Origin: Polyangiaceae bacterium
GTDB taxonomy: Bacteria > Myxococcota_A > Polyangia > Polyangiales > Polyangiaceae
DNA length: 48,945 nucleotides
Assembly: GCA_029261965.1 (NCBI GenBank)
Contig: JAJDAH010000383.1
Location: forward strand, 1 to 48,945
Direction: 5' to 3'
The notes below the pieces were generated by a model. That model was not told where the DNA came from. It was given only the letters and a program-made list of their open reading frames with translations, and did not search any database. The translations under genes were made by a program, and so were the position numbers. Within the stretch, counting starts at the first letter, position 1. The number at the start of each line of letters is the position of its first letter. Shown in pieces: positions 7,342-39,985 of this stretch.

Positions 7342-8745
7342 ATGACCATGCTCGCTACCGTTGCCGCTGATGCTGGCCATGCACATCACCCGCCGCCCGC
7401 GTCGGTGACGTATCTGTTCGCCGCGCTGTTGGTGTGCATGGTGCTCGCTCTCGCGTTCGAAGAAAAAATTCACGCCAAGAAGTCGGTCATCACCGGGATC
7501 GCGGCGATCGTGACCCTCGTCGTCGGCACGGCGTGCGGGATCATGCCGTTTGGGCCGGTCGTCAATGTTTTTGGGGAAAAGCTAGCGCTTCCCGTCTACA
7601 TCCCGGCGGTCGATTGGGGCGTCATTGCCATCATTTTCGGCGCGAGTTTGTTCGTGGACGTGACCAGCAAGTCCGGACTCTTCTCCTGGATCGCGATCAA
7701 GCTGACAAAAGCCTCGCGTGGCGATCCTTGGATATTGCTCTTTTCCTACGGCGCGATGACGGTCGTTTTCAGCGCCGTCTTGAACAACGTCACGGCGATG
7801 CTCATCGTCGGCTCGCTGACCGTCGTCAGCCTGGACAAGCTGGGCAAGCGGGATTTGCTGCTCGGCTTTCTGCTCGTGGAGGGGCTGCTGACGAACATCG
7901 GCGGCCTGCTGACGCTCATCAGCTCGGTGCCGAACATCATCATCGGCAACGCGGCGAAGATCGGGTTCGTGCAATTTTTTCTGGTCGCCAGCCCCTACGT
8001 ACTGGTCGCGATGCTCGTGACCATCTTGCTCGGTGCGAAGCTGTTCGGGGTCAAGCGGCTCTCGGGAGACGAAGAAAAGGCGACGGCCGCGAAGCTCGTC
8101 GCCGGCTTCGACGAGAACGATGGCGTCAAGAGCCAAGGTTTTTTCTGGTTTTCGACCGCGCTGTTCGTCGCCTTCATCGGCGTGCTCGCCACCACGTCGC
8201 TCATTCCATACATCCAAGAGCTCGGCATGGGCTATGTGGCCCTGGCGTTCGCTGGAATCTCCGTGCTCCGCTATAAAAGTTCCGTCGACAAGCTCTACAA
8301 GGCTATCGACTGGGATCTGCTGCTGTTCTTCGCGTCGCTGTTCGTCGTGATCAACGTCATGGAGCACGCGAGGGTGCTGCATGCCATCGGCGGTGCGCTC
8401 GGCGGCATCATCTCGCTCGGCCCGAAGCTCGGTTCAGGGGCGCTGCTCGTCTCGTCGGCGGTAGCGAGTGCGGTGACCGACAACATCCCGCTGGCCGCCG
8501 TTCTCGCGAAGATTCTCGGCTCCATGCCGACACCGCCGGACACCGGCATGTGGTGGGCCGTCGTGTTCGGGGCGAATCTCGGCGGAAACATCACACCCAT
8601 AGGTTCGGCTTCCACGGTCGTTGCGGTGACGATCATGCACAAGCACGATCTGCCTCTGGGTTTCGCTCGATTCGTCAAGCTCGCGATTCCGTACGCGGCG
8701 GTGCAGCTCGTGTTGGCGGTCGCCTACGTCGTCGTTTTTCTGTGA
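7342..8745 (+). CDS. ArsB/NhaD-type ion transporter (IT superfamily permease)
   Basis: 467 residues with about 11-12 membrane helices. Signature segments are FSAVLNNVTAMLIVG and, in the second repeat, SAVTDNIPLAAVLAKIL plus GANLGGNITPIGSAST, diagnostic of the ArsB/NhaD/SLC13-related ion transporter superfamily (Na+/H+ antiporter NhaD and citrate/anion permease relatives). The His-rich N-terminus (AHHPPP) could bind metal. Substrate cannot be decided from sequence; Na+/H+ exchange is one option. The ATG at 7342 follows the stress-protein stop by two bases. The gene ends 3 bases before the convergent TetR gene. Confidence 0.85.
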   Translation: MTMLATVAADAGHAHHPPPASVTYLFAALLVCMVLALAFEEKIHAKKSVITGIAAIVTLVVGTACGIMPFGPVVNVFGEKLALPVYIPAVDWGVIAIIFGASLFVDVTSKSGLFSWIAIKLTKASRGDPWILLFSYGAMTVVFSAVLNNVTAMLIVGSLTVVSLDKLGKRDLLLGFLLVEGLLTNIGGLLTLISSVPNIIIGNAAKIGFVQFFLVASPYVLVAMLVTILLGAKLFGVKRLSGDEEKATAAKLVAGFDENDGVKSQGFFWFSTALFVAFIGVLATTSLIPYIQELGMGYVALAFAGISVLRYKSSVDKLYKAIDWDLLLFFASLFVVINVMEHARVLHAIGGALGGIISLGPKLGSGALLVSSAVASAVTDNIPLAAVLAKILGSMPTPPDTGMWWAVVFGANLGGNITPIGSASTVVAVTIMHKHDLPLGFARFVKLAIPYAAVQLVLAVAYVVVFL

Positions 8746-8748
8746 GGG

Positions 8749-9447
8749 TCAATCGTCCGCACGATGACCGAAGGCGTCGAGCACCATGGCGACGATTCTC
8801 GAGGTGAGCTCGGGCAGGCGTTCGTGTTCGCCGTGGTCCATGTAACGCGCGCTGATGGCATCGATCCCACCGACGAGGCAATACGCCGTCGTCTCGTCCG
8901 GCGCGCGTCGCACGAGTCCTGCGGCGTAGGCTTCCGCGACGCCTTCCATGATGAGCGAAGCGTAGCGCGAGAACACTGCTTCACGTCGGCTCACGCCTTC
9001 CGCGCCGAGTGCGAGAACCTCTCGCGTGACGACGAGCGTCGCGTTAGGCTCCGCTGAAAGCGCAAGCAAGTAGGTGCGAATTGCGCGCTCGACCTTCTCG
9101 CGCGGGTCCGTCGTGCTTCTGACCTCGCGTTCGATCGCTCGGAACAGCGAGCGAGTCCCGAAGTCGTAGACTTGGACCAGTGCGTCCGGCAGGTCTCGAA
9201 ACTCTTGGTAGAACGCCTGGCGACTCACGCCCGCGCGGTCGACAATCTGCTGGACGGAAGCACGCGCGAATCCGTGCTCGCCGATCACGTCGATCGCTGC
9301 GCGAAGGAGCTTGAGGCGGCGCTCTTTCGCGCGCTCGCCCCCAGTTTTTTTTCGGTCGTAGCTGCCGGGTCCCGGCCCCTTACCGGCGGCCTTTCTTGTC
9401 CCCGAAGGCCCGGAGTTCCCCCGTGTTTGAGTGCTTGGAGACGACAT
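8749..9447 (-). CDS. TetR/AcrR-family transcriptional regulator
   Basis: 232 residues. A basic, Gly/Lys-rich tail of about 38 residues precedes a typical TetR helix-turn-helix: RLKLLRAAIDVIGEHGFARASVQQIVDRAGVSRQAFYQEF (about 44-83). The C-terminal ligand-binding helices are variable and give no hint of ligand. The gene is divergent from the serine-hydrolase lipoprotein at 9582. The 134-base gap holds two inverted repeats, one touching this gene's start, so autoregulation and control of the lipoprotein are likely (inference). Confidence 0.9.
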   Translation of the reverse strand: MSSPSTQTRGNSGPSGTRKAAGKGPGPGSYDRKKTGGERAKERRLKLLRAAIDVIGEHGFARASVQQIVDRAGVSRQAFYQEFRDLPDALVQVYDFGTRSLFRAIEREVRSTTDPREKVERAIRTYLLALSAEPNATLVVTREVLALGAEGVSRREAVFSRYASLIMEGVAEAYAAGLVRRAPDETTAYCLVGGIDAISARYMDHGEHERLPELTSRIVAMVLDAFGHRADD

Positions 9448-9449
9448 CG

Positions 9450-9468
9450 TCTAATTGATAATAGTAGA
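9450..9468. promoter_or_regulatory. Imperfect inverted repeat next to the TetR start
   Basis: TCTA and TAGA ends flank an AT-rich core (TCTAaT ... AgTAGA) two bases upstream of the TetR start codon. It is AT-rich in a GC-rich genome and placed where an autorepressor would block transcription. Only 5 base pairs per arm match, so this is a candidate operator or promoter element only. Confidence 0.35.
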
Positions 9469-9521
9469 CAAGTTGCTGGACAGGACTAAAAAATGGCTTG
9501 CTCAGCTCCGCGCGAGACTGT

Positions 9522-9543
9522 ATCTGAACATAAGCGTTCAGAT
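9522..9543. promoter_or_regulatory. Perfect inverted repeat, candidate TetR operator
   Basis: ATCTGAAC and GTTCAGAT form perfect 8-base arms separated by six bases (ATAAGC). It sits between the divergent TetR gene (8749-9447) and the lipoprotein gene starting at 9582. Its size and symmetry fit a TetR-dimer operator. It could alternatively form a hairpin in the leader of the lipoprotein mRNA. Confidence 0.55.
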
Positions 9544-9581
9544 GACTGGCCGCACACTCGTCGCACTTTCCGGAGGTTTCC

Positions 9582-11129
9582 ATGGCCGCTTTTTTCTCTC
9601 GTTCGCCCGTCACGTCGGGTTCCATTGCCGTTTCGTTGCTGCTCTGTGGGTGCGGGAGCGCCGACGGCCACCCGGACCCCGAGGAGCCGACACTGCCGTT
9701 GGCGACCGGGCAGTTGGTCGAGTGGCCGACCGACCAGTGGGTGGTCAAGACCCCGGAAGAGATGGGCATGGACGCCGAGGTTCTCGACGGTGTGCGCGAG
9801 TACGCGTTTCAGCCCGAAAAGAACACCCAGTCGGTCATCGTGATCCGCGGCGGCGCGATTGTGGCCGAGTGGTACGCCGAGGGCGCGGACCGCACCAGCA
9901 TGGCGACGAGTTGGTCGGCGGGCAAGAGCTACGCGAGCGCGCTCGTCGGCGTCGCGCTCACCGAGGGACTGATCGAGAGCGTCGAGCAACCCATGACGGA
10001 CTTCTATCCGCAGTGGATCGGAACTGCCAAGGCGGACATGAAGCTCAAGGACGCACTGCAAGCCCAGTCCGGCCTCGACTTCAACGAGGACTACGCGAAC
10101 CCGGCGGTCAGTCACGTCATCCAGCTCGGAGCCGCCGCGGACGCGCTGGACTACATCACCAACGTCGTAGAGCTGCGGACGAAGCCCGGCACGCGCTGGT
10201 ACTACTCGAGCGGTGACACGATGCTGCTCTCCGGCGTCATCGAAGCGGTCACCGGTGTCAACGCCTCGACCTACGCCAAGGACAAGTTGTTCGGGCCGTT
10301 GGGGATGGACGAGGCCAAGTGGTGGGTCGATGGAGCTGGCCATACCGAGACCTGGTGCTGCGTGGATGCGCCGACGCGGGAATTCGCGAAGCTCGGTCTG
10401 CTGTTCATGCGCAATGGCGAATGGGACGGCGAGCAAGTCGTATCGAAGCAGTGGGTGAAGGACTCCACCACCGACACCGCGAGTGAGTTCCCGGGATACG
10501 CTTATCAGTGGTGGACGTCTTACGCCCTCGACCCCAGCGGTAAGCTGCCGGCGGATCTGTTCTTCGCTCGTGGCTACGATGACCAGCGCATCCACGTCAT
10601 TCCCAGTCTCGACCTCATCGTCGTGCGTCAGTCGATCTATCGCGAGCCCCCGAACGAAGAGAGGGTCGCTCCAAACGGAGTGTTCGCTGAAATGCAGGGA
10701 CGGAGCGAAGGGACCTACGGCACGATGGCTGCGGACATTTGGATCGATCCCGAGCTGCTCGTTCCCGCCATCAACTCGATCGAAGGTGCGGAAAAGATCG
10801 AGCTGACGAGCCTACCCGGCCTCGGCGAGGTGAGCGACGATCCCGACGAGTGCCGCGCCCGGGCGGCCGAGCTCGGTGGGTTCTGCGAGCCGGTGCACGG
10901 TTGCGTGTGCACCTCGTGCGCGGAGGACTTTCTGCGTTGCAATCAGGATCGGGGCTGCGCCGAAATCCTCGGCTGCGCGCTGGAAACTGGCTGTCGTTCC
11001 GTGGAGTGTCTCAACTCCTGCGGGGACGTGATCGAGCGGAACGGGGGACTGTCGGGCACGAGTACCGCGCTGGCCCTGATCGTCGACGAGTGCCAGGGCG
11101 TTGCCCAGTGCGCGACCAGTTGCGAATAG
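9582..11129 (+). CDS. Lipoprotein serine hydrolase, class C beta-lactamase-like fold, with Cys-rich tail
   Basis: 515 residues. A short N-terminal signal ends in a lipobox-like LLLCGCGS (Cys 22 or 24). Residues about 50-400 match the class C beta-lactamase/esterase family: TSWSAGKS carries the SxxK nucleophile motif (Ser112, Lys115), and WYYSSGD at about 206-212 takes the YxN place with Ser rather than Asn as third residue. ARGYDDQRIHV (about 329-339) takes the place of the usual HxG region. The Asn loss argues against efficient beta-lactam hydrolysis and for an esterase/peptidase role. The last 100 residues form a separate domain with some 15 cysteines (patterns such as CVCTSC and CAEILGCALETGC), probably disulphide-rich and extracellular. 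GGAGG lies 7 bases before the ATG. Confidence 0.85.
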   Translation: MAAFFSRSPVTSGSIAVSLLLCGCGSADGHPDPEEPTLPLATGQLVEWPTDQWVVKTPEEMGMDAEVLDGVREYAFQPEKNTQSVIVIRGGAIVAEWYAEGADRTSMATSWSAGKSYASALVGVALTEGLIESVEQPMTDFYPQWIGTAKADMKLKDALQAQSGLDFNEDYANPAVSHVIQLGAAADALDYITNVVELRTKPGTRWYYSSGDTMLLSGVIEAVTGVNASTYAKDKLFGPLGMDEAKWWVDGAGHTETWCCVDAPTREFAKLGLLFMRNGEWDGEQVVSKQWVKDSTTDTASEFPGYAYQWWTSYALDPSGKLPADLFFARGYDDQRIHVIPSLDLIVVRQSIYREPPNEERVAPNGVFAEMQGRSEGTYGTMAADIWIDPELLVPAINSIEGAEKIELTSLPGLGEVSDDPDECRARAAELGGFCEPVHGCVCTSCAEDFLRCNQDRGCAEILGCALETGCRSVECLNSCGDVIERNGGLSGTSTALALIVDECQGVAQCATSCE

Positions 11130-11147
11130 TCTCGAAGGTGCCGACGC

Positions 11148-12926
11148 TCAGGCGGAGCGCGCCTCGCGCTTTCGCTTCTGCGCGTCATCGAGCACCGCCG
11201 CCAGCGTCTCGAGCTGGACGGGTTTCGTGACGAAATCGTTCATTCCTGCGGCGCGGCAAAGGTCGCGCTGCTCGTCGAGCACGCTGGCGGTCAGCGCGAC
11301 GACGAAGGGTTGCCCGCTCTCGACTTCGCGCCCGCGGATTCGGCGCGTCGTCTCGGCCCCGTCTATGTCGGGCATGTGCAGATCCATGAAAATGATGTCG
11401 TAGGCTTTCTTGTCGATCGCTGCGAGAACTTGCTGCCCGTTGCTCGCGACATCCGGCGAATGGCCGAGCTTCGACAAGAGCCGTGTGGCCACACGTAGGT
11501 TCAGCGGATCGTCGTCGGCGACGAGCACACAAAGCGGAGTGCTCGAGGGCTTGATTCGAGTGGCCGAAAGAGGTTCGTCTCTCGGTGCCTCTTCCTCGCG
11601 TTCCACGATGGGGATGGCGAAGTGAAACGTCGAGCCGCGACCGACTTTGCTCGTCACGCTCATGGTGCCACCCATCAACGCGACCAAGCGTCGGCTGATG
11701 GAGAGACCGAGCCCCGTTCCGCCGTGCCGGCGCGTCGCCGACGCGTCGAGCTGAGTGAAAGGCTGGAAAAGCTTCTTGCGAGCCTCGGCGGGGATGCCGA
11801 TTCCGGTGTCGCTGATGTCGAACTGGAGTCGGTCTCGTTGAGAAGTGGCGCTCACTGTGACGCGCCCAGCACTCGTGAACTTGATGGCATTTCCCACGAG
11901 GTTGACGAGCACTTGCTTGAGGCGAATGGCATCGGCTTCCACCGAGCGCGGGAGGTTCTCGTCGAGGTCCACGTGGAGGTCCAAGCCCTTGTTCACTGCA
12001 GCGGGTTTGAGCAATCGCGTGACATCCGCGACGCAATCACGCACATCGAAATGCACGCTTTTCACGTGGACCTGCCCGGCCTCCATTTTGGACAGCTCGA
12101 GAATATCGTCGACGATCGTGAGAAGTGCGCTGCCGCTGCTGCGCATGGTGTGGATGATTTCCGCCCGGTCCACGTCCGGGTCGTCCATCAGCGGCAGCAA
12201 GCCCAGCACTCCGTTGAGCGGGGTCCGAATTTCGTGGCTCATGTTGGCGAGAAATTCGGATTTGGCTCGAGCTGCAGCGAGTGCCGCGTCTCGCGCTTGC
12301 TCGAGCTCGAGGGTCTTGGCTTTCAGTACCTCAGCGTACTTTTCTACTTGCATTTCGTGGGCTTCGACACGGGCCACGTGCGCGTCCATGATGCGTCGCG
12401 CGGCGATCGCGAAGGCAAGGACCACGGCGACGAGCGCAACGCGACCGAGGAGGAGCTCGCCGCCCACCGGAACGAATTCCGGTTCGACCCTCGCGACCGC
12501 TTCGCTCGCGTGCACGCAGGCGACGAGTACGGAAGCAATGAGCGCCCACACCACGGCGGCCCGAGAGCCGAGCTGGTAGGCGGCGACGAGTGGCGCGCAG
12601 GCGAGCCACCACACCGCCATCGAAGCCGTTTGCCCGCTCAGGATTGCCGCTGCGGTCAGGCCGACCGCCGACGCCGCGAGATTGAGATGGGCGCCAAGAG
12701 GGATTCGCCGGCTCTCGTCGTCCGCGAGAGCCCACGCTCGAATGCCCAGACCGGTCGCCGCTACGGCAAGGTCGATGGCGACGGTTTTCCAGCGCCCCTG
12801 CATGGCGTACTGCAAAGCGAAGCCGAGCCAGCCCACCGCCATCACGGAGGCGAGCACGCTCAGCCGCGAACGTGCCGCCCGGTCGGCAGCATGCATGCGA
12901 ATGTCGAGCTCGCGACCATCGCTCAT
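11148..12926 (-). CDS. Membrane hybrid sensor histidine kinase/response regulator
   Basis: 592 residues from the ATG at 12926 (a TTG at 13004 would extend it). Order of domains: five or six membrane helices (about 22-175), a coiled coil (about 183-222), HisKA with FLANMSHEIRTPLNG (phospho-acceptor His231), HATPase with NLVGNAIKF (about 342-350), DTGIGIP and GTGLGLSISR, then a receiver domain (about 466-580) with acidic pocket DDD, phospho-Asp515 in FMDLHMPD and Lys568 in TKP. All catalytic residues are present, so it should autophosphorylate and pass phosphate internally. No HPt domain or separate regulator is adjacent, so the output partner is elsewhere. No extracytoplasmic sensor loop is large, so the signal is probably sensed in or near the membrane. 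Confidence 0.92.
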   Translation of the reverse strand: MSDGRELDIRMHAADRAARSRLSVLASVMAVGWLGFALQYAMQGRWKTVAIDLAVAATGLGIRAWALADDESRRIPLGAHLNLAASAVGLTAAAILSGQTASMAVWWLACAPLVAAYQLGSRAAVVWALIASVLVACVHASEAVARVEPEFVPVGGELLLGRVALVAVVLAFAIAARRIMDAHVARVEAHEMQVEKYAEVLKAKTLELEQARDAALAAARAKSEFLANMSHEIRTPLNGVLGLLPLMDDPDVDRAEIIHTMRSSGSALLTIVDDILELSKMEAGQVHVKSVHFDVRDCVADVTRLLKPAAVNKGLDLHVDLDENLPRSVEADAIRLKQVLVNLVGNAIKFTSAGRVTVSATSQRDRLQFDISDTGIGIPAEARKKLFQPFTQLDASATRRHGGTGLGLSISRRLVALMGGTMSVTSKVGRGSTFHFAIPIVEREEEAPRDEPLSATRIKPSSTPLCVLVADDDPLNLRVATRLLSKLGHSPDVASNGQQVLAAIDKKAYDIIFMDLHMPDIDGAETTRRIRGREVESGQPFVVALTASVLDEQRDLCRAAGMNDFVTKPVQLETLAAVLDDAQKRKREARSA

Positions 12927-33752: not shown

Positions 33753-34400
33753 TCAATCCATGAACCCTTCGACGGTCACCCGCACCAGCTCGAGGAAACA
33801 CTGTTCGGCAGCGGTTTCGTCGTCGAAGTAGCCGTCCACCTCGAGGCTGACGTGGCCATGCATCGCCGCCCAAAGCACGTCGCAGACGAGGGTCGACTCC
33901 GCCGAGCCGAGCTCGCCAGCGTCTACGCACGCCTCCACGGCGTCGAGCACGGTCTTGTAGGCGGTCGTCGCACGAATCTTCTGGGCGTTCGGTGGCGCCC
34001 CGGTCGGGAGCGCCCGGCCGTAGGCGACGCCGTACCACTCGGGGCTGTCCAGGGCGGCCGTGCGATAGGTGGCGGCCAAAAGGGCCAGCCGGTGCAGCGG
34101 TTCCCGGTGGCGCGGTGCCGAACAAAGCGCTTCACCCAACCGCTCGAAGCCCTCGAGCCACAGAGCGTCGACGAGACCCTCTTTCCCTCCGAACGCCGTA
34201 TACACGGCCATCGTCGAGCCACCGACGGCGTTCGCCAGACGGCGCACGGTGAGGCCGGCGGCTCCCTCGTCGGCGAGAATCTGTCCCGCAGCGTCGAGAA
34301 GCACGCGGCGCTGTACGCCCCTTCCGCGCGCGGGCGGCGCCTCCTTCGGACTCGGACGAGCCTTGGGAGCCTTCTTTTTCGTCGTTCGACGAGCGGCCAC
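33753..34400 (-). CDS. TetR-family transcriptional regulator
   Basis: 215 residues. A Lys/Arg/Pro-rich N-terminus (about 1-28) precedes the helix-turn-helix RRVLLDAAGQILADEGAAGLTVRRLANAVGGSTMAVYTAFGGKEGLVDALW (about 31-81). The C-terminal half contains PEWYGVAYGRALP and WAAMHGHVSLEVDGYF, as in TetR_C_13/WHG-type domains. The start is a GTG at 34400 inside an inverted repeat. A second perfect palindrome lies 37 bases upstream. Likely autoregulated and controlling the SDR and DUF6559 genes, perhaps also linked to the sterol genes upstream. Confidence 0.9.
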   Translation of the reverse strand: MAARRTTKKKAPKARPSPKEAPPARGRGVQRRVLLDAAGQILADEGAAGLTVRRLANAVGGSTMAVYTAFGGKEGLVDALWLEGFERLGEALCSAPRHREPLHRLALLAATYRTAALDSPEWYGVAYGRALPTGAPPNAQKIRATTAYKTVLDAVEACVDAGELGSAESTLVCDVLWAAMHGHVSLEVDGYFDDETAAEQCFLELVRVTVEGFMD

Positions 34401-34498: not shown

Positions 34499-36475
34499 TT
34501 AGTCGACTGGGCGCGTGTCCGCGACCGACAGGGCCCAGAGCGGGAAAATCTTCAGGTAGTTGTCGTAGTGGATGGCACTGGTCTTGTTGAACATGCCTGC
34601 GATGTGCTCTGCGGGCCAGCTGCCGTCTTGTCGTTGCGTGCGACGCAGAAAACCTATTCCCCGCTCGACGACTTCGCCGGTCTCTCCGGCCTCCATGAGC
34701 GCTAGCAATGACCACGAGGTCATGACCGCCTGGCCTTTTTCCGTGTCCACCCATCGGCGCTCGGCGCAGCTTCTGGCGTGTTCTCCCCAGCCGCCATCGG
34801 GCATTTGGTGTCGCTTCAGGAAAGCCACGGCCTTGCTCAGGGCCGGGTGTTCGTTCGGGATACCGGCGGCTTTGAGCCCGAGCACGCCGAACCAAGTTCC
34901 GTAGCTGAAGCACACCCCCCAAGAACCTTCCCACGAACCGTCCGCCCGTTGCATTTCGAGGATGTAGTCGACGCCGCGCTGCACCGATTCGCGGATCTCA
35001 CGCTCCCGCACGCCGGGGTAGCGCTTGTTGAACGCCATCATGGCTTGCACACATGCCGACGTGCACTCGACGTACGAGTAGTCGATCATGATGTCGGCGA
35101 AACAGTCTGATGGATTCAAGAGCTCGAGCCACTTCGGGCCGCGGGTCAGCTCGTACGTCGCCCAGCCGCCGTCTTCGTTCTGCCACGACAGGATCTGGTC
35201 GACGGCGTCGGTCAAGCGCGACTGGCCGATGGGGCGCTCGACGCGTTTTTCGGCGAGCAAGCTCGCCTTCAGTCCTTCAGCCGTGCAATCGCTGATTGGC
35301 CACCCGTGAGGGCGGTCCGAGAACGGCCACCCCCCTTTCGATCGATGGCGGTAGCACTTCTCTTTGTCCGGCACGTCCTCGAGGACCTGATTGTCGTCGA
35401 GGTAGGTGTGGGCGCGAGACAGCATGGCCTCTGCTTCCGAGTGTCGGTTTGACGCCATCGCCGCTTGCATGGCGAAGGTCGTGTCCCACAATCGCGAGTT
35501 GTTGTAGCCCTGCATCTTGAGGCCATCTTCCGCCTGGTAGAGGTAGTCGGACAGCCGTTCGATGTGACGTGCGAGCTCGGGTCCGTCGCGATCGACGAAG
35601 TACCACACGAGTGTGTGATAGAGCTTGTTGATCGGTCCGATGCAGATGTAGTCGGTGTTCCTGTCCTCGTAACCGATTTGCTCGAGGACGAAATTTTGGG
35701 CCCGGCCGCGCAGCGCCCGACTGTGGCGCGGCTCGTACTCGTTCAGAACTTTGTTCACCGATTGGATGACTCGCGAATGCGGCGTGTAGGCGTCGTGGGG
35801 AGCGACGCGATTTCGCGCCGCCGCCCAGTCGATGCGGTCGAAAGGCTCCGTGTAAATTTCGGTGCGAATCTCTTCGAGCAGCGGCGTGAGCTCTGCCGTG
35901 ACTTTTCGGCCGTAGAGCCAACTCATCGGCAGATACACCATGCGGCAGTGGCACCAGAGTCGCGACGGGTGCACTGGCAGGCTCTCGGGCAAGAGCCAGA
36001 GCTCCGGCGGGATCGGGTTCAGCCCGCGGTAGTCGTACAGCCCCAACACCGAGAGGATGAACTTGCCCCAAGCCGCCGACGCCAGCGCGCCACCCCGCGG
36101 TAGGAACCAGTCGCGGGCTTTCTTGAGCGCCGGGTCGTCGGCGGGCACGCCGAGAAGGCGCAGCGCGACGTAGTTCAGGACGGAGGTGAACATGTGGTTG
36201 TCCCCCTCGACGTGCAGCCCCCACCCGCCGTCGGCCGCTTGGTGGTGGCGCATGTAGCGGATCATTTCGGCCCGTTGATCGGCGGGGATCTCGATCTTCG
36301 CCGTTTCGGCCACGGCGACGTAGGCGGGTAACAGAAATTGCGGACCGCCGTAGTCGCCGTGCCAGGAGCCGTCGGTGTGCTGTGTCTTTTCGAGGTAGCC
36401 GAGCGCCGCGCTGATCGGGTCGGTCAGCGCGCGCGGAGCGTCGGCGTCGCGAGGCATCGGTTCTTGTAGGGTCAC
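34499..36475 (-). CDS. Oxidosqualene cyclase, cycloartenol-synthase type
   Basis: 658 residues. The catalytic motif is DCTAE (396-400), the protonating Asp motif of oxidosqualene cyclases; squalene-hopene cyclases have DxDD. At the product-deciding sites it has Tyr324 (in MQGYN), His390 and Ile394 (in HGWPISDCTAE), equivalent to Tyr410/His477/Ile481 of Arabidopsis cycloartenol synthase, whereas lanosterol synthases carry Thr, Cys/Gln and Val. Six QW repeats are visible (for example QAADGGW 79-85, QNEDGGW 432-438, QRADGSW 509-515, QRQDGSW 614-620), plus YVECTSA and SWGVCFSYGTWFG. The start is GTG 36475 with GGGAG upstream, 46 bases after the fusion gene. It should cyclise 2,3-oxidosqualene, most likely to cycloartenol, at the membrane surface. 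Confidence 0.93.
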   Translation of the reverse strand: MTLQEPMPRDADAPRALTDPISAALGYLEKTQHTDGSWHGDYGGPQFLLPAYVAVAETAKIEIPADQRAEMIRYMRHHQAADGGWGLHVEGDNHMFTSVLNYVALRLLGVPADDPALKKARDWFLPRGGALASAAWGKFILSVLGLYDYRGLNPIPPELWLLPESLPVHPSRLWCHCRMVYLPMSWLYGRKVTAELTPLLEEIRTEIYTEPFDRIDWAAARNRVAPHDAYTPHSRVIQSVNKVLNEYEPRHSRALRGRAQNFVLEQIGYEDRNTDYICIGPINKLYHTLVWYFVDRDGPELARHIERLSDYLYQAEDGLKMQGYNNSRLWDTTFAMQAAMASNRHSEAEAMLSRAHTYLDDNQVLEDVPDKEKCYRHRSKGGWPFSDRPHGWPISDCTAEGLKASLLAEKRVERPIGQSRLTDAVDQILSWQNEDGGWATYELTRGPKWLELLNPSDCFADIMIDYSYVECTSACVQAMMAFNKRYPGVREREIRESVQRGVDYILEMQRADGSWEGSWGVCFSYGTWFGVLGLKAAGIPNEHPALSKAVAFLKRHQMPDGGWGEHARSCAERRWVDTEKGQAVMTSWSLLALMEAGETGEVVERGIGFLRRTQRQDGSWPAEHIAGMFNKTSAIHYDNYLKIFPLWALSVADTRPVD

Positions 36476-36521
36476 CTCAAAACTCCCATGGCGGGTGGCC
36501 GCGTCCTGCGGCGCTCGACTT

Positions 36522-39500
36522 TCAAGCTTGTTCGGCGGCAGAGACGTCGCCGGCCGGTGCGGTCCAGAGCCGGCTGTAGGCGTCGCGAAGCGCGTCGTCG
36601 TCGGCGAAGAGATTTCCGCATTCCGCCATCAGCTTCGCCATTTCCATGCGTGAGATCTTCACCGGCGCACCGGCGGTGAACATTGCGTCATTTCCTCGTG
36701 CCAGGACGAGCGTTCGCGCGGCCATCCACAGAGGGATGAGACAGAACATGCGAACGCCCTTCTGTGTTGGCGGCACCGCGAGCGTGTACTCGAGCGCCAT
36801 TCCGAGGCGCTTCTCGGCGATGTCGAGCAACGGGGCCGCAACGGCGTGCGCTCGGTCGCGCTTGGCGGGCTCGAAGAGCTCCCGGATTTCGAGGCCGTGC
36901 TCTTGGCACAGGTTCCGCGGCAAGTAGGAGACGCTCCGCTCCATGTCGTCGGTCACGTCTTTGAGGATGTTGACCAATTGCAACCCGGCGCCGAACGACT
37001 CCGAGTTGTGGCGAAGCACGACCTCGGCATTTCGGTCGAGCTGGTGCCCGAACTCGTCGACGAAGAGCTCCGTCAGCATGTGTCCGACGGTTCCGGCGAC
37101 GTAGTAGCAGTAGCGTTCGAGGTCGTCGGTCGAGATGACGGCGATGATTCCGTCTGGACCCGCCGTGCGATGGCTGTAGAGGCTCATCCCGCGAGCCATT
37201 TCACTGATCCACTTGGTGCACGCCAGCTGGGTCTTCCGCGGGAGATCTCGAAACACGCGCATCACTCGCGGCAGGCCCCGGGCGAGCTCGACTTCGGCGT
37301 CCGCGCCCTCGACCCGGCGGAAAGCGTCGACGACCTCGTGCGAGGTTTCGCTCCCCTTGAGAACCTTGAGAAACGCGGTGAACAGCTCGTCTCTCTGTTC
37401 GAGCGGCAGAGAAGGGTGGTCCTCGATGGTGTCGGCGATTCGGCAGAGCAGGTAGCCACAAGTCACCGCGGTATCGAGCGGATCGGGGAGCATGAGGATG
37501 GGCTTCGAGAAGCTGCGCGATACCTCCTCAAGCCGTGCACGGCACCATTGGCGATCGCCGCGGGTGGGTTTCGCGGTGTCTTCGACCGGGAGAACCGACA
37601 CCGGGGCACGCCGCTTGGGTGGCTCCGAAGCCATGTCCCGTCGAGGCTCTCTCGACGTCGCCATCTTCGGCGTCGGCCGATTCATGCGTTCGGCTTCCGC
37701 TGAGGCGAGGCCCTCGATCAGCTCACAAGTGAGCGGCCAGGTGATTGCCCGCGTCTCGGCGAGTTGGACCTTCAGAGCGCTAGCTGCGGCTACCGCGGTC
37801 TCATCGACGAGGTCGCAGTACGGTGCTTTGGTCGCCAACAGAGCTCGGAGCCGGCGAGCGACATCGCGCGTCTCGGTTTCGTCGCCGTGCGCGTACACCC
37901 AGTTCGCGGCGCGACGAAGCGCAGGATCCGAAGGCGGAGCGCCGCCGGCGCGAAGCGCATCGATGGCGAGGCCGGTCGCCGTGATGGTTCCGCTCCAAGA
38001 ACCATCCTCTCGCTGATCGCCGCGAAGGCGGGTGAGCGCGCTATTCAGGGCGCGAGCGACGGGCGCGCCAACCGCCGCCGGGTAGTGACGGGCATAGGCG
38101 CCAAGAGCCTGGCACGCGAGCGACGTCGCGCGGAGCGGGGGATCGCCGTCCGCGGCGAACATTGCGTTTTCGCCCTGGTGGCGGAGCAAGCTCTCGACGG
38201 CGGCATCGACGGCTTCCGCGCCGTCACCACCGGCCGACGGCGAGTCGAGCAGCGCCAAGAGCACGACGGCGAGTGTTTCCGCTCCCGGCGTGGCGACACC
38301 TCGCGAGCTCTCGAACGCCAACTCGCGGAGCGATTTCACGACCCGGCCCCGACCTTCGCGATCCGCGGCTGGTGTCACTCGGAGCGTGGATTCGATGCGA
38401 TCCACCGTCCGCAACAGTAACGCTGCGCGGCGCGTCAGGTCATCGCGGTTCGGCTCCACCTCGTCCGAGATTCGGCTGAGCTCGGCGAGAAGTTCGTGGC
38501 GGGCGCTACGCAGGATGACGTCGGCCACGAGTGGCTTGGTTCGTTTCTTTTTCGTGGGGGCGCGCGTGCGGGCCGCCTTGGCTTCGAAAGACGCGGCTAG
38601 GGCGGGGATGGGGTGAAACGCGCTGCTCTCGACCCGGTAGCGCCGCCGCAATCGACCCGGCACGATCGTCGCTGCAGGCCACCGCACCCATTGCCCGTAG
38701 CTGGCGAGATCCTGGGCCAAGCGGCCCCAGTGTCCCTGACTGAGCGAGTCCGCCACTGTCGAGTGGGCGGCGTGCAAAGCGATTCTGGAGAATGTCGAGC
38801 CGAAGCTCGCCGTTCCCGCTTCGTCGCCGGTGAGAAATCGCATCGTCGTTTCCCGCACGGACGAGCTTTCGCGCCACACGTCGTAGACGGAGCTGCGAAC
38901 TCGCGCGGCGTTTTCGTCGTCGCGACGGAGCACGTGATAGAGCACGTTCGCGAGCAATTCGGGAACGTAGCTCTGTTTCTCCCGGGTGGACTCGTACTTC
39001 GAAACCTTCTTGTTGGCGGCCAGAGCCTCGGCGTCGAGAAAGCCCATGGTCAGGCCGGCCGCGGTCATCGGATGGAAGTGACCCACCGCGTCGCCGACGA
39101 GGGCCACGTTGTCCTTGCCGTAGGTCGACCTCGGCCGAAAGCGCGTCGCCGCCCAGGCAACCTTCCGCTCTTCGAGCGCCGTACGGAACGCCGGCCTGAG
39201 CGCTTCGGGGAACAGGGGACCGAAAGCATCCCAGAGGAATCGAGCGTCGCGCCGCGCCCCGGCGAACGACACCGGTACGTCCAGGCACACGCGGATGCGG
39301 TTGGTCGCGATCCGATACATCAGCACCGGCCCCGGACCACCGAGCAGAACGTGACCAAATCCTTCGAACGGCAGCTCCGTATCGATGAGCTCGATCGAGG
39401 CCATGGACGACAGCAAGGTGCTGTTTTCCGGTAGGCCGAGGTGTCGACGGGTGAGCGACGAGCGGCCTTCCGCACCGACGATCCGGCCGGCGGTGACTTC

Positions 39501-39941
39501 GAACTCTGCGCCGCCGCTCCTCGGCGTGGCCCGAAGCCGGTTGCCCTCGATGCTCGTCACGCGCGTGTCAGGGAGGTATTCGACGCCGACGCTTGCGGCC
39601 TTCTCGCGCAGCGCGGTGACCATGGCTTCGTGGTCACAAGTGATCGCGACTGCGCCATCAGCGTAGGGCAGAGGGATCGCCGCGCTGCCGTCGTCAGGGA
39701 AGACGACGAAGCCGTACGCCGAGCAGGTTTCTGCCGGCTCCAGGCGACCGGCCCGGAGGCGGTCGAGCGCGTCGACGCCCGGAGGGTGAATCCATTCTCC
39801 AGCGAAGCGCGTGCACGACCTCGGGTTGGCCTCGAGCATCAACACGCGTGCGCCGCGTCGCGCGTAGGCGATGGCGGTCACGCATCCAATCGGTCCCCCG
39901 CCGATGATGGCGGCATCGTAGCTCGCGGCGCTGCTAATCAT
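36522..39941 (-). CDS. Fusion: squalene-epoxidase-like FAD domain + QW-repeat domain + squalene-synthase-like domain
   Basis: 1139 residues from ATG 39941 (a TTG at 39947 adds two). Domain 1, about 8-440: FAD-binding GGGPIG (14-19), GE of the GExxxPPG block (48-56), IVGAEGRSS (154-162) and GDAVGHFHPMTAAGLTMG (283-300); the HP(L/M)T after GD is typical of squalene monooxygenases. Domain 2, about 470-750: helical, with one clear QW motif QREDGSW (643-649) in an alpha-toroid-like context, no DCTAE or DxDD. A disordered Lys/Pro linker (755-795) follows. Domain 3, about 797-1125: SRSFSKPILMLP, the aspartate motifs DTIED (837-841) and DVTDD (995-999), YCYYVAGTVGHMLTELF (944-960) and YLPRNL, all of the squalene/phytoene synthase family and closest to squalene synthases. 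It could make squalene from farnesyl diphosphate and epoxidise it. Confidence 0.85.
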   Translation of the reverse strand: MISSAASYDAAIIGGGPIGCVTAIAYARRGARVLMLEANPRSCTRFAGEWIHPPGVDALDRLRAGRLEPAETCSAYGFVVFPDDGSAAIPLPYADGAVAITCDHEAMVTALREKAASVGVEYLPDTRVTSIEGNRLRATPRSGGAEFEVTAGRIVGAEGRSSLTRRHLGLPENSTLLSSMASIELIDTELPFEGFGHVLLGGPGPVLMYRIATNRIRVCLDVPVSFAGARRDARFLWDAFGPLFPEALRPAFRTALEERKVAWAATRFRPRSTYGKDNVALVGDAVGHFHPMTAAGLTMGFLDAEALAANKKVSKYESTREKQSYVPELLANVLYHVLRRDDENAARVRSSVYDVWRESSSVRETTMRFLTGDEAGTASFGSTFSRIALHAAHSTVADSLSQGHWGRLAQDLASYGQWVRWPAATIVPGRLRRRYRVESSAFHPIPALAASFEAKAARTRAPTKKKRTKPLVADVILRSARHELLAELSRISDEVEPNRDDLTRRAALLLRTVDRIESTLRVTPAADREGRGRVVKSLRELAFESSRGVATPGAETLAVVLLALLDSPSAGGDGAEAVDAAVESLLRHQGENAMFAADGDPPLRATSLACQALGAYARHYPAAVGAPVARALNSALTRLRGDQREDGSWSGTITATGLAIDALRAGGAPPSDPALRRAANWVYAHGDETETRDVARRLRALLATKAPYCDLVDETAVAAASALKVQLAETRAITWPLTCELIEGLASAEAERMNRPTPKMATSREPRRDMASEPPKRRAPVSVLPVEDTAKPTRGDRQWCRARLEEVSRSFSKPILMLPDPLDTAVTCGYLLCRIADTIEDHPSLPLEQRDELFTAFLKVLKGSETSHEVVDAFRRVEGADAEVELARGLPRVMRVFRDLPRKTQLACTKWISEMARGMSLYSHRTAGPDGIIAVISTDDLERYCYYVAGTVGHMLTELFVDEFGHQLDRNAEVVLRHNSESFGAGLQLVNILKDVTDDMERSVSYLPRNLCQEHGLEIRELFEPAKRDRAHAVAAPLLDIAEKRLGMALEYTLAVPPTQKGVRMFCLIPLWMAARTLVLARGNDAMFTAGAPVKISRMEMAKLMAECGNLFADDDALRDAYSRLWTAPAGDVSAAEQA

Positions 39942-39985
39942 GTTCAATCGGCAGCGCGAACTCGTGCGTGAGCTTCATGAAGCAA

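Follow-up and report, generated by a model that had tools for sequence, protein, structure and literature searches.

To our knowledge, squalene epoxidase (SE) is a separate protein in known organisms. Among the systems closest to the one considered here, fused SMO/OSC homologs are mentioned once, in a methods sentence of PMC10070321, and a natural domain fusion within a bacterial sterol pathway has been described in Methylococcus capsulatus, where CYP51 is joined to a ferredoxin (PMC13277303). A direct hand-over of squalene from squalene synthase (SQS) to SE has been argued from indirect yeast data (PMC9399743), and the sterol pathways of Myxococcota have been proposed as a source of eukaryotic sterol synthesis (PMC12004948). 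The subject of this analysis is a gene of a Polyangiaceae bacterium (Myxococcota_A) in which SE and SQS are joined in one polypeptide. It lies in a stretch of 48,945 nucleotides, referred to as the window, which is contig JAJDAH010000383.1 (positions 1 to 48,945, forward strand) of GCA_029261965.1, a draft genome of 480 contigs and 9.59 Mb that is 96% complete.

The fused gene (36522-39947, minus strand) is an uninterrupted open reading frame (ORF) of 1141 codons from a TTG, from which the residue numbers below are counted, or of 1139 aa from an alternative ATG start at 39941, and is followed head to tail, after a gap of 46 nt, by a gene for an oxidosqualene cyclase (OSC; 34499-36475, minus strand, 658 aa). 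Its product is made up of an N-terminal SE domain, a middle domain (MID) and a C-terminal SQS domain, and it would be, with a probability that we put at about 0.8, a bifunctional enzyme leading from farnesyl diphosphate (FPP) to oxidosqualene. In the proposed mechanism, the SQS domain would condense two molecules of FPP and reduce the product to squalene, which the N-terminal FAD domain would convert to 2,3-oxidosqualene; the OSC from the next gene would then turn this into a cyclic product, probably cycloartenol, and the rings would be modified by CYP51, ERG24 and ERG2-type enzymes with genes on another contig. MID, held on flexible linkers, would act as a spacer between the two enzymes, and it may also tether both of them to the membrane or offer a docking site to the real OSC. 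Both activities, their coupling, the channelling and the docking role are what we infer from domain identity, models and gene context. A reading of this DNA made from the sequence alone had described a three-domain protein of 1139 residues with an OSC 46 bases on, which is borne out by the ORF coordinates and the Pfam and PDB matches, and the motifs that it had named (GGGPIG, GE, GD..HPMT, DTIED, DVTDD and YCYYVAG) were all located by motif scan.

The SE domain (residues 1-455; 38583-39947, minus strand) carries the FAD-binding GxGxxG motif as GGGPIG (39885-39902, minus strand, residue 16), AGEWIHP at residue 49, and the second FAD motif (GD...HP) as GDAVGHFHPMT (39063-39095, minus strand, residue 285), the GD motif being recorded in the motif test as LVGDAVGHFHPMT. 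The Pfam SE family (PF08491) matches at residues 158-397 with 81.5 bits against a gathering threshold of 20.1 (6.8e-23), and FAD_binding_3 at 10-310. The closest solved relative by sequence is human squalene monooxygenase (PDB 6c6n, 2.6e-18), and the model of the N-terminus aligns with the same structure over 421 residues (VIA Z 41.5; root mean square deviation, rmsd, 2.1), the best other flavoprotein listed reaching a VIA Z of 34.4; in Foldseek, 6c6r is matched at 3.6e-20. The domain thus resembles human SQLE, its closest solved structure, and bacterial SEs in fold, FAD motifs and Pfam family, and differs from them in being joined to MID and SQS. The sequence-only reading had held that an N-terminus outside the squalene monooxygenases would speak against its proposal, and the fold proved closest to that of human squalene epoxidase. 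A geranylgeranyl reductase, UbiH or phenol hydroxylase was considered and rejected, the GG-red-SF and UbiH-type NCBIfam models scoring far under their cut-offs and Pfam, PDB and fold all ranking SE first among annotated families.

The SQS domain (residues 790-1136; 36540-37580, minus strand) contains the first Asp-rich motif as DTIED (37419-37433, minus strand, residue 839), YCYYVAG at residue 946, and the second Asp-rich motif as DVTDD (36945-36959, minus strand, residue 997). SQS_PSY (PF00494) matches at 807-1101 with 163 bits against a cut-off of 26 (1.4e-47), the best solved relatives by sequence are squalene synthases (PDB, 2.3e-25), and the closest folds are TcSQS 3wca (VIA Z 36.2) and human SQS 3weh (VIA Z 36.0). 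Of the NCBIfam models, the squalene synthase equivalog TIGR01559 is the top-scoring one, with HpnC, HpnD and CrtB lower. The domain shares with human and fungal SQS the fold, both Asp-rich motifs, YCYYVAG and FCxIP, but it forms the C-terminus of a fusion and stays under the NCBIfam equivalog cut-off. Whereas eukaryotic SQS has a membrane anchor at its end (PMC9399743), none of the eight top hydropathy windows of the fused protein lies after the SQS domain.

The source genome has one profile match each to PF00494, PF08491 and TIGR01787, and four polyprenyl synthetase matches. Given its 96% completeness, the single SE and SQS matches mean that both steps have to come from the fused gene if sterols are made in the usual way; the HpnC/HpnD/HpnE route to squalene requires a second SQS_PSY paralogue, which is absent from the matches in this genome. 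Within 4.6 kb of another contig (C140) lie genes for a CYP51 (7jj1 "Cytochrome P450 51", 4.4e-147), an ERG4/ERG24 reductase and an ERG2_Sigma1R protein, and later sterol steps are therefore encoded. The ERG2/sigma-1-receptor-like protein (L159:10712-11695, minus strand, beside the CYP51 gene and near the ERG24-type gene) belongs to a eukaryote-style sterol isomerase family, here in a bacterium, and has no NCBIfam match at 1e-10. The window OSC scores 669.6 bits with TIGR01787 (cut-off 322.7; 4.7e-201) and 826.6 with TIGR03463, just short of the cut-off of 851, and its closest PDB entry is human lanosterol synthase 1w6k (4.7e-197). Its DCTAE motif (35276-35290, minus strand, residue 396) stands in the context WPISDCTAEG, with an isoleucine two residues before the Asp, at what we take to be human position 453. 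Among tested bacteria, isoleucine at position 453 is the mark of cycloartenol synthases (PMC4919349), which fits the cycloartenol product guessed in the sequence-only reading. Like the cycloartenol-type OSCs of the Methyloceanibacter loci L054 and L063, it combines DCTAE with this isoleucine, and it is an ordinary member of its family, not itself novel.

MID (approximately residues 475-757; 37677-38525, minus strand) is a 12-helix alpha/alpha barrel homologous to the C-terminal part of OSC. In the AlphaFold2 model of the whole chain (39 aligned sequences; mean pLDDT 88.7, pTM 0.78), linkers at 459-472 and 763-787 with pLDDT below 50 divide the chain into three domains, and MID folded alone (14 sequences) reached a pLDDT of 83.7 and a pTM of 0.80, again with 12 helices. 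Its best structural matches are human OSC (Foldseek 1.1e-5) and the squalene-hopene cyclase (SHC) 2sqc (VIA Z 23.9, rmsd 3.3, 263 residues). Since complement and carbohydrate-enzyme barrels match MID at Z 20-22, more weight is given to the link in sequence, for which hhalign of the MID profile (16 rows) against the OSC C-terminal part gave an E of 1.5e-20 and a probability of 99.3; the Pfam squalene-cyclase match within the fused protein, at 633-701, is weak and below cut-off. The motif scan found DCTAE in none of 16 MIDs and D.DD in one (L027), with neither in the MID of the window, and the DCTAE of the window OSC precedes the stretch that aligns to MID. MID is the least conserved part of the fused protein, its invariant residues in a 14-row alignment being L, R, R and A, and it is apparently a remnant of a cyclase barrel that would be catalytically dead. 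Of the "QW-repeat domain" seen in the sequence-only reading, the helical character stands, refined to a single cyclase-type barrel without the cyclase catalytic motif.

When 59 genomes were searched with the whole protein, three others of the order proved to carry full-length relatives in one piece, at 45-48% identity. A six-member profile gave some match at 1e-30 in 76 of 377 Myxococcota genomes (own included), and SE and SQS lie in one open frame in at least 13 of the 377 (own included), a lower bound because the phylum searches scored the best first-pass candidates only. The fusion is found in one piece in G000, G048, G381, G038, G058, G053, G047 and G052 and in two pieces of the same frame in G209, G169, G396, G250 and G227, the latter five and G381 having been confirmed on their DNA; family f1 is represented among the 13 by G000 only. 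The same domain order, which the earlier reading had proposed to look for elsewhere in Myxococcota, is thus present there, and its suggestion of a novel architecture holds in so far as no described SE-SQS fusion was found in the literature searched, but not in the sense of a unique one, as the fusion recurs across the phylum.

A second scan gave 74 named loci, and domains were mapped on 92 loci (L022-L113) and the window, after which L049, L053, L065 and L067 were dropped as duplicates of L025, L024, L030 and L026, respectively, before the counts were made; as several loci recur under two names, the counts are of entries, not of independent genomes. The arrangement SE-MID-SQS accounts for 16 entries (window, L022-L027, L040, L041, L042, L043, L045, L047, L048, L050 and L051), one of which, L042, is a cut near-copy of L023, and SE-OSC for 17, some on contigs labelled Gamma- and Alphaproteobacteria. 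SE-SQS without MID occurs in L081, a contig of a metagenome-assembled genome (MAG) labelled Dadabacteria; SQS is joined to OSC in L112 (Nocardia) and to a squalene-hopene-type cyclase in L033 (the last two Pfam-checked); no three-way SE-OSC-SQS frame was present among the mapped loci, and in some relatives split SE and SQS genes are adjacent. G048 is likely Sandaracinus amylolyticus, a cultured bacterium in which cholesterol has been reported (PMC12004948). For this species the table in PMC4919349 shows two different locus tags in its first two gene columns, the second being Osc and the first presumably SE, an entry that the SE-OSC fusion of G048 does not readily explain.

No SE-SQS fusion was found in the literature searched, although mention in other papers is possible: the available text of PMC10152446, PMC4919349, PMC10202945, PMC12004948, PMC9304148, PMC13277303, PMC10070321 and PMC12146001, searched with fusion terms, and that of PMC9399743, searched by enzyme names, held none. 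The fused SMO/OSC homologs (PMC10070321) likewise combine a bacterial N-terminal SE with a sterol-pathway partner and have a cyclase-type barrel behind the SE; in the window protein, by contrast, SE is partnered by SQS, no catalytic motif is present in the barrel, the SE branches apart from the SEs of SE-OSC, and what comes after it is just the C-terminal barrel of a cyclase, the complete OSC being a separate gene. The CYP51-ferredoxin protein of M. capsulatus (PMC13277303) is also a natural domain fusion in a bacterial sterol pathway, but what it couples is an enzyme and its source of electrons, rather than consecutive steps on the carbon skeleton. The component enzymes are known; the literature searched has no description of a single chain that joins them, of its repeated occurrence, of the dead cyclase barrel or of the wider fusion set. 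With a natural single-chain version that has split and SE-OSC relatives, the hand-over of squalene becomes directly testable in one construct. Triterpenoid engineers gain a ready-made fusion, a putative dead-cyclase scaffold domain is added to those known, and the fusion can serve as a marker with which to trace sterol synthesis through the history of Myxococcota.

Gene context was followed in L043, L045 and part of L022. In L043, the genes that come after the fusion share its strand, are separated by short gaps at most and encode, in order, an SdmB-like 3-beta-hydroxysteroid dehydrogenase (3-beta-HSD), HMG-CoA reductase (HMGR), a CYP51-like P450 closest in PDB to sterol 14-demethylases (9.9e-107) and OSC, and in L045 those after it encode 3-beta-HSD, an SdmA-like Rieske oxygenase, HMGR, P450 and OSC; the SdmA and SdmB NCBIfam models are the best matches in these runs, yet under their cut-offs. 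The two runs give a strong guilt-by-association link to sterol synthesis. Both SE-MID-SQS and SE-OSC are present in G048, G381, G038, G058 and G053 and in locus L048. Where they co-occur, the SE half of SE-OSC scores 272-387 bits, compared with 410-473 for the 11 SE-OSC rows without SE-SQS in the locus, a gap that cannot be explained solely by the scoring profile having been built from SE-SQS proteins. The co-occurring SE-OSCs also have altered SE motifs (for example GASIAG, GAWLHP and AAGA in L023; PPLPAIG in L022), whereas the SE of SE-SQS keeps them. Lower score and altered motifs together make the SE joined to SQS look like the working copy where both fusions occur. The decayed SE-OSC rows form one clade and hence amount to about one evolutionary event. 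Changes of the DG motif by themselves are not diagnostic of decay: they are also seen in SE-OSC rows that have no SE-SQS in the locus (4 of 11, namely L028, L060, L064 and L066) and in free-standing SEs (L030, L069, L074 and L075), and the window SE has one too, D-to-E.

The SEs of SE-SQS and of SE-OSC lie on separate branches in the SE trees, all trees being of the "quick" type with long branches. A single origin for the SE of SE-SQS is not rejected (p-AU 0.44) in a tree of 35 SE rows chosen after a first SE tree had been inspected, which had left out 17 SE rows (15 from Verrucomicrobia-type loci, L078 and L082); in the SQS tree, a single clade of fused SQS is rejected (p-AU 0.0003), because free SQS genes fall among the fused ones. 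Domain matches below 100 bits or below 80% of the model were excluded from the tree rows, which kept the two-piece SE of L045 out of every SE tree. One fusion followed by splits, or repeated fusions, would both fit these trees. A recent origin from a duplicated SE-OSC fusion with complementary loss is rejected by the separate branches of the two SE kinds; an ancestor with SE-OSC or SE-OSC-SQS further back is possible, MID being homologous to the OSC C-terminus.

Several points weigh against the reading of the fused protein as a bifunctional enzyme of sterol synthesis. In the SE domain, the DG motif is AEG rather than ADG, and in a pairwise alignment F stands at what we take to be the position of human Y195. 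PF08491 is not specific, since two of the 14 control genomes, those of E. coli and Caulobacter vibrioides, also match it, and the SE assignment is therefore based on score, alignment and fold combined. The SQS domain falls short of the TIGR01559 cut-off, with 122 bits where 286.75 are required. The later sterol genes are on another contig, away from the window pair, and in the trees free-standing SE and SQS genes are interspersed with fused ones. Seven of the 13 fusion genomes (G000, G047, G052, G169, G396, G250 and G227) have no PF08491 match besides the fused SE, and 11 of the 13 have a second, higher-scoring SQS_PSY gene, perhaps a phytoene synthase, the fused SQS being the only SQS_PSY match in G000 and G169. 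The missed cut-off and the E. coli match would suit a protein of which one half does something else, the flavoprotein oxidising another substrate, as the FAD_binding_3 superfamily has many, or the SQS half making presqualene diphosphate, phytoene or dehydrosqualene. We regard this as unlikely, since squalene epoxidase and squalene synthases come first in both the PDB and the fold comparisons, the HpnC, HpnD and CrtB models score lower, the source genome has no second SQS_PSY gene for an HpnC/HpnD route, OSC adjoins the gene, and sterol genes trail the fusion in L043 and L045.

That MID is itself an active or regulatory cyclase domain, so that the fused protein also cyclises, is less probable still: its barrel is homologous to OSC, but it is one barrel only, the DCTAE and D.DD counts given above speak against it, and none of its invariant residues is acidic. 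The draft state of the genome might suggest an assembly chimera or a missed stop codon behind the fused gene, an explanation left with a negligible chance and refuted by the recurrence of the fusion in other genomes, among them the single-contig G048 (10,327,335 bases) and the two-contig G381, which show it in one frame; nor is there any indication of the frameshift that the sequence-only reading had considered, the frame being intact. A closer contender, to which we would give slightly less than even odds, is that both halves work and the fusion fixes only co-expression and stoichiometry, with squalene diffusing through the membrane and no channelling. The low-confidence linkers, the poor conservation of MID, the L081 protein, in which SE and SQS stand only some 15 residues apart, and the split adjacent genes of relatives agree with this, whereas the finding that yeast SE works much better on FPP-made squalene than on squalene that is added (M'Baya and Karst 1987, as cited in PMC9399743) implies proximity of SQS and SE, and SE is found fused to SQS or OSC, and SQS to SE, OSC or SHC. 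The fused protein belongs to a wider set of upper-sterol-pathway fusions in Myxococcota. A broader proposal, which we advance only tentatively and would sooner expect to fail than to hold, is that the head of the sterol pathway in this phylum consists of interchangeable fused modules (HMGR, prenyl synthase, SQS, SE, OSC and 3-beta-HSD) in polypeptides of two to four enzymes, the window protein being one module, with MID as a docking mimic that would hold OSC, and squalene and oxidosqualene passed along one membrane-bound assembly.

Other fused frames were noted in the course of the mapping. A Myxococcota MAG has a 1556-aa frame (L060:1026-5696, plus strand) with HMGR, polyprenyl synthetase, squalene synthase and 3-beta-HSD-type domains and, at 7842-11372 of the same locus, an SE-OSC fusion, so that much of the upper sterol pathway lies on two proteins. 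Single frames also join HMGR-SQS-3-beta-HSD (L066:6348-10346, plus), SQS-3-beta-HSD (L028:8393-10711, plus), polyprenyl synthetase-SQS (L183:3135-5240, plus), HMGR-polyprenyl synthetase (L184:6265-8685, minus) and, in G048, HMGR-3-beta-HSD (L182:930-3557, minus). The SQS-cyclase fusion of Nocardia sp. alder85J (L112:9294-12431, plus, 1045 aa) directly follows a separate SE gene, and the motif scan did not find the DCTAE pattern in its cyclase; the protein joining SQS to a squalene-hopene-type cyclase (L033:5798-8872, plus, 1024 aa) is from G044. The SE-SQS frame of L081 (4269-6671, plus), with its approximately 15 residues between domain matches, overlaps the OSC frame, and that OSC reads WPTADCTAE, with T, neither I nor V, at the 453 position.

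Around the sterol pair, ten other ORFs of the window (27.5-45.7 kb) were scanned, none of which gave a sterol-specific Pfam match; three are matchless, and the others fall to alpha/beta hydrolase, EamA, SDR, TetR, DPBB, thioesterase and APH families. The gene of the TetR-type protein (33753-34400, minus strand) shares the strand of the OSC gene and lies 98 nt downstream of it; its product is a possible regulator of the pair.

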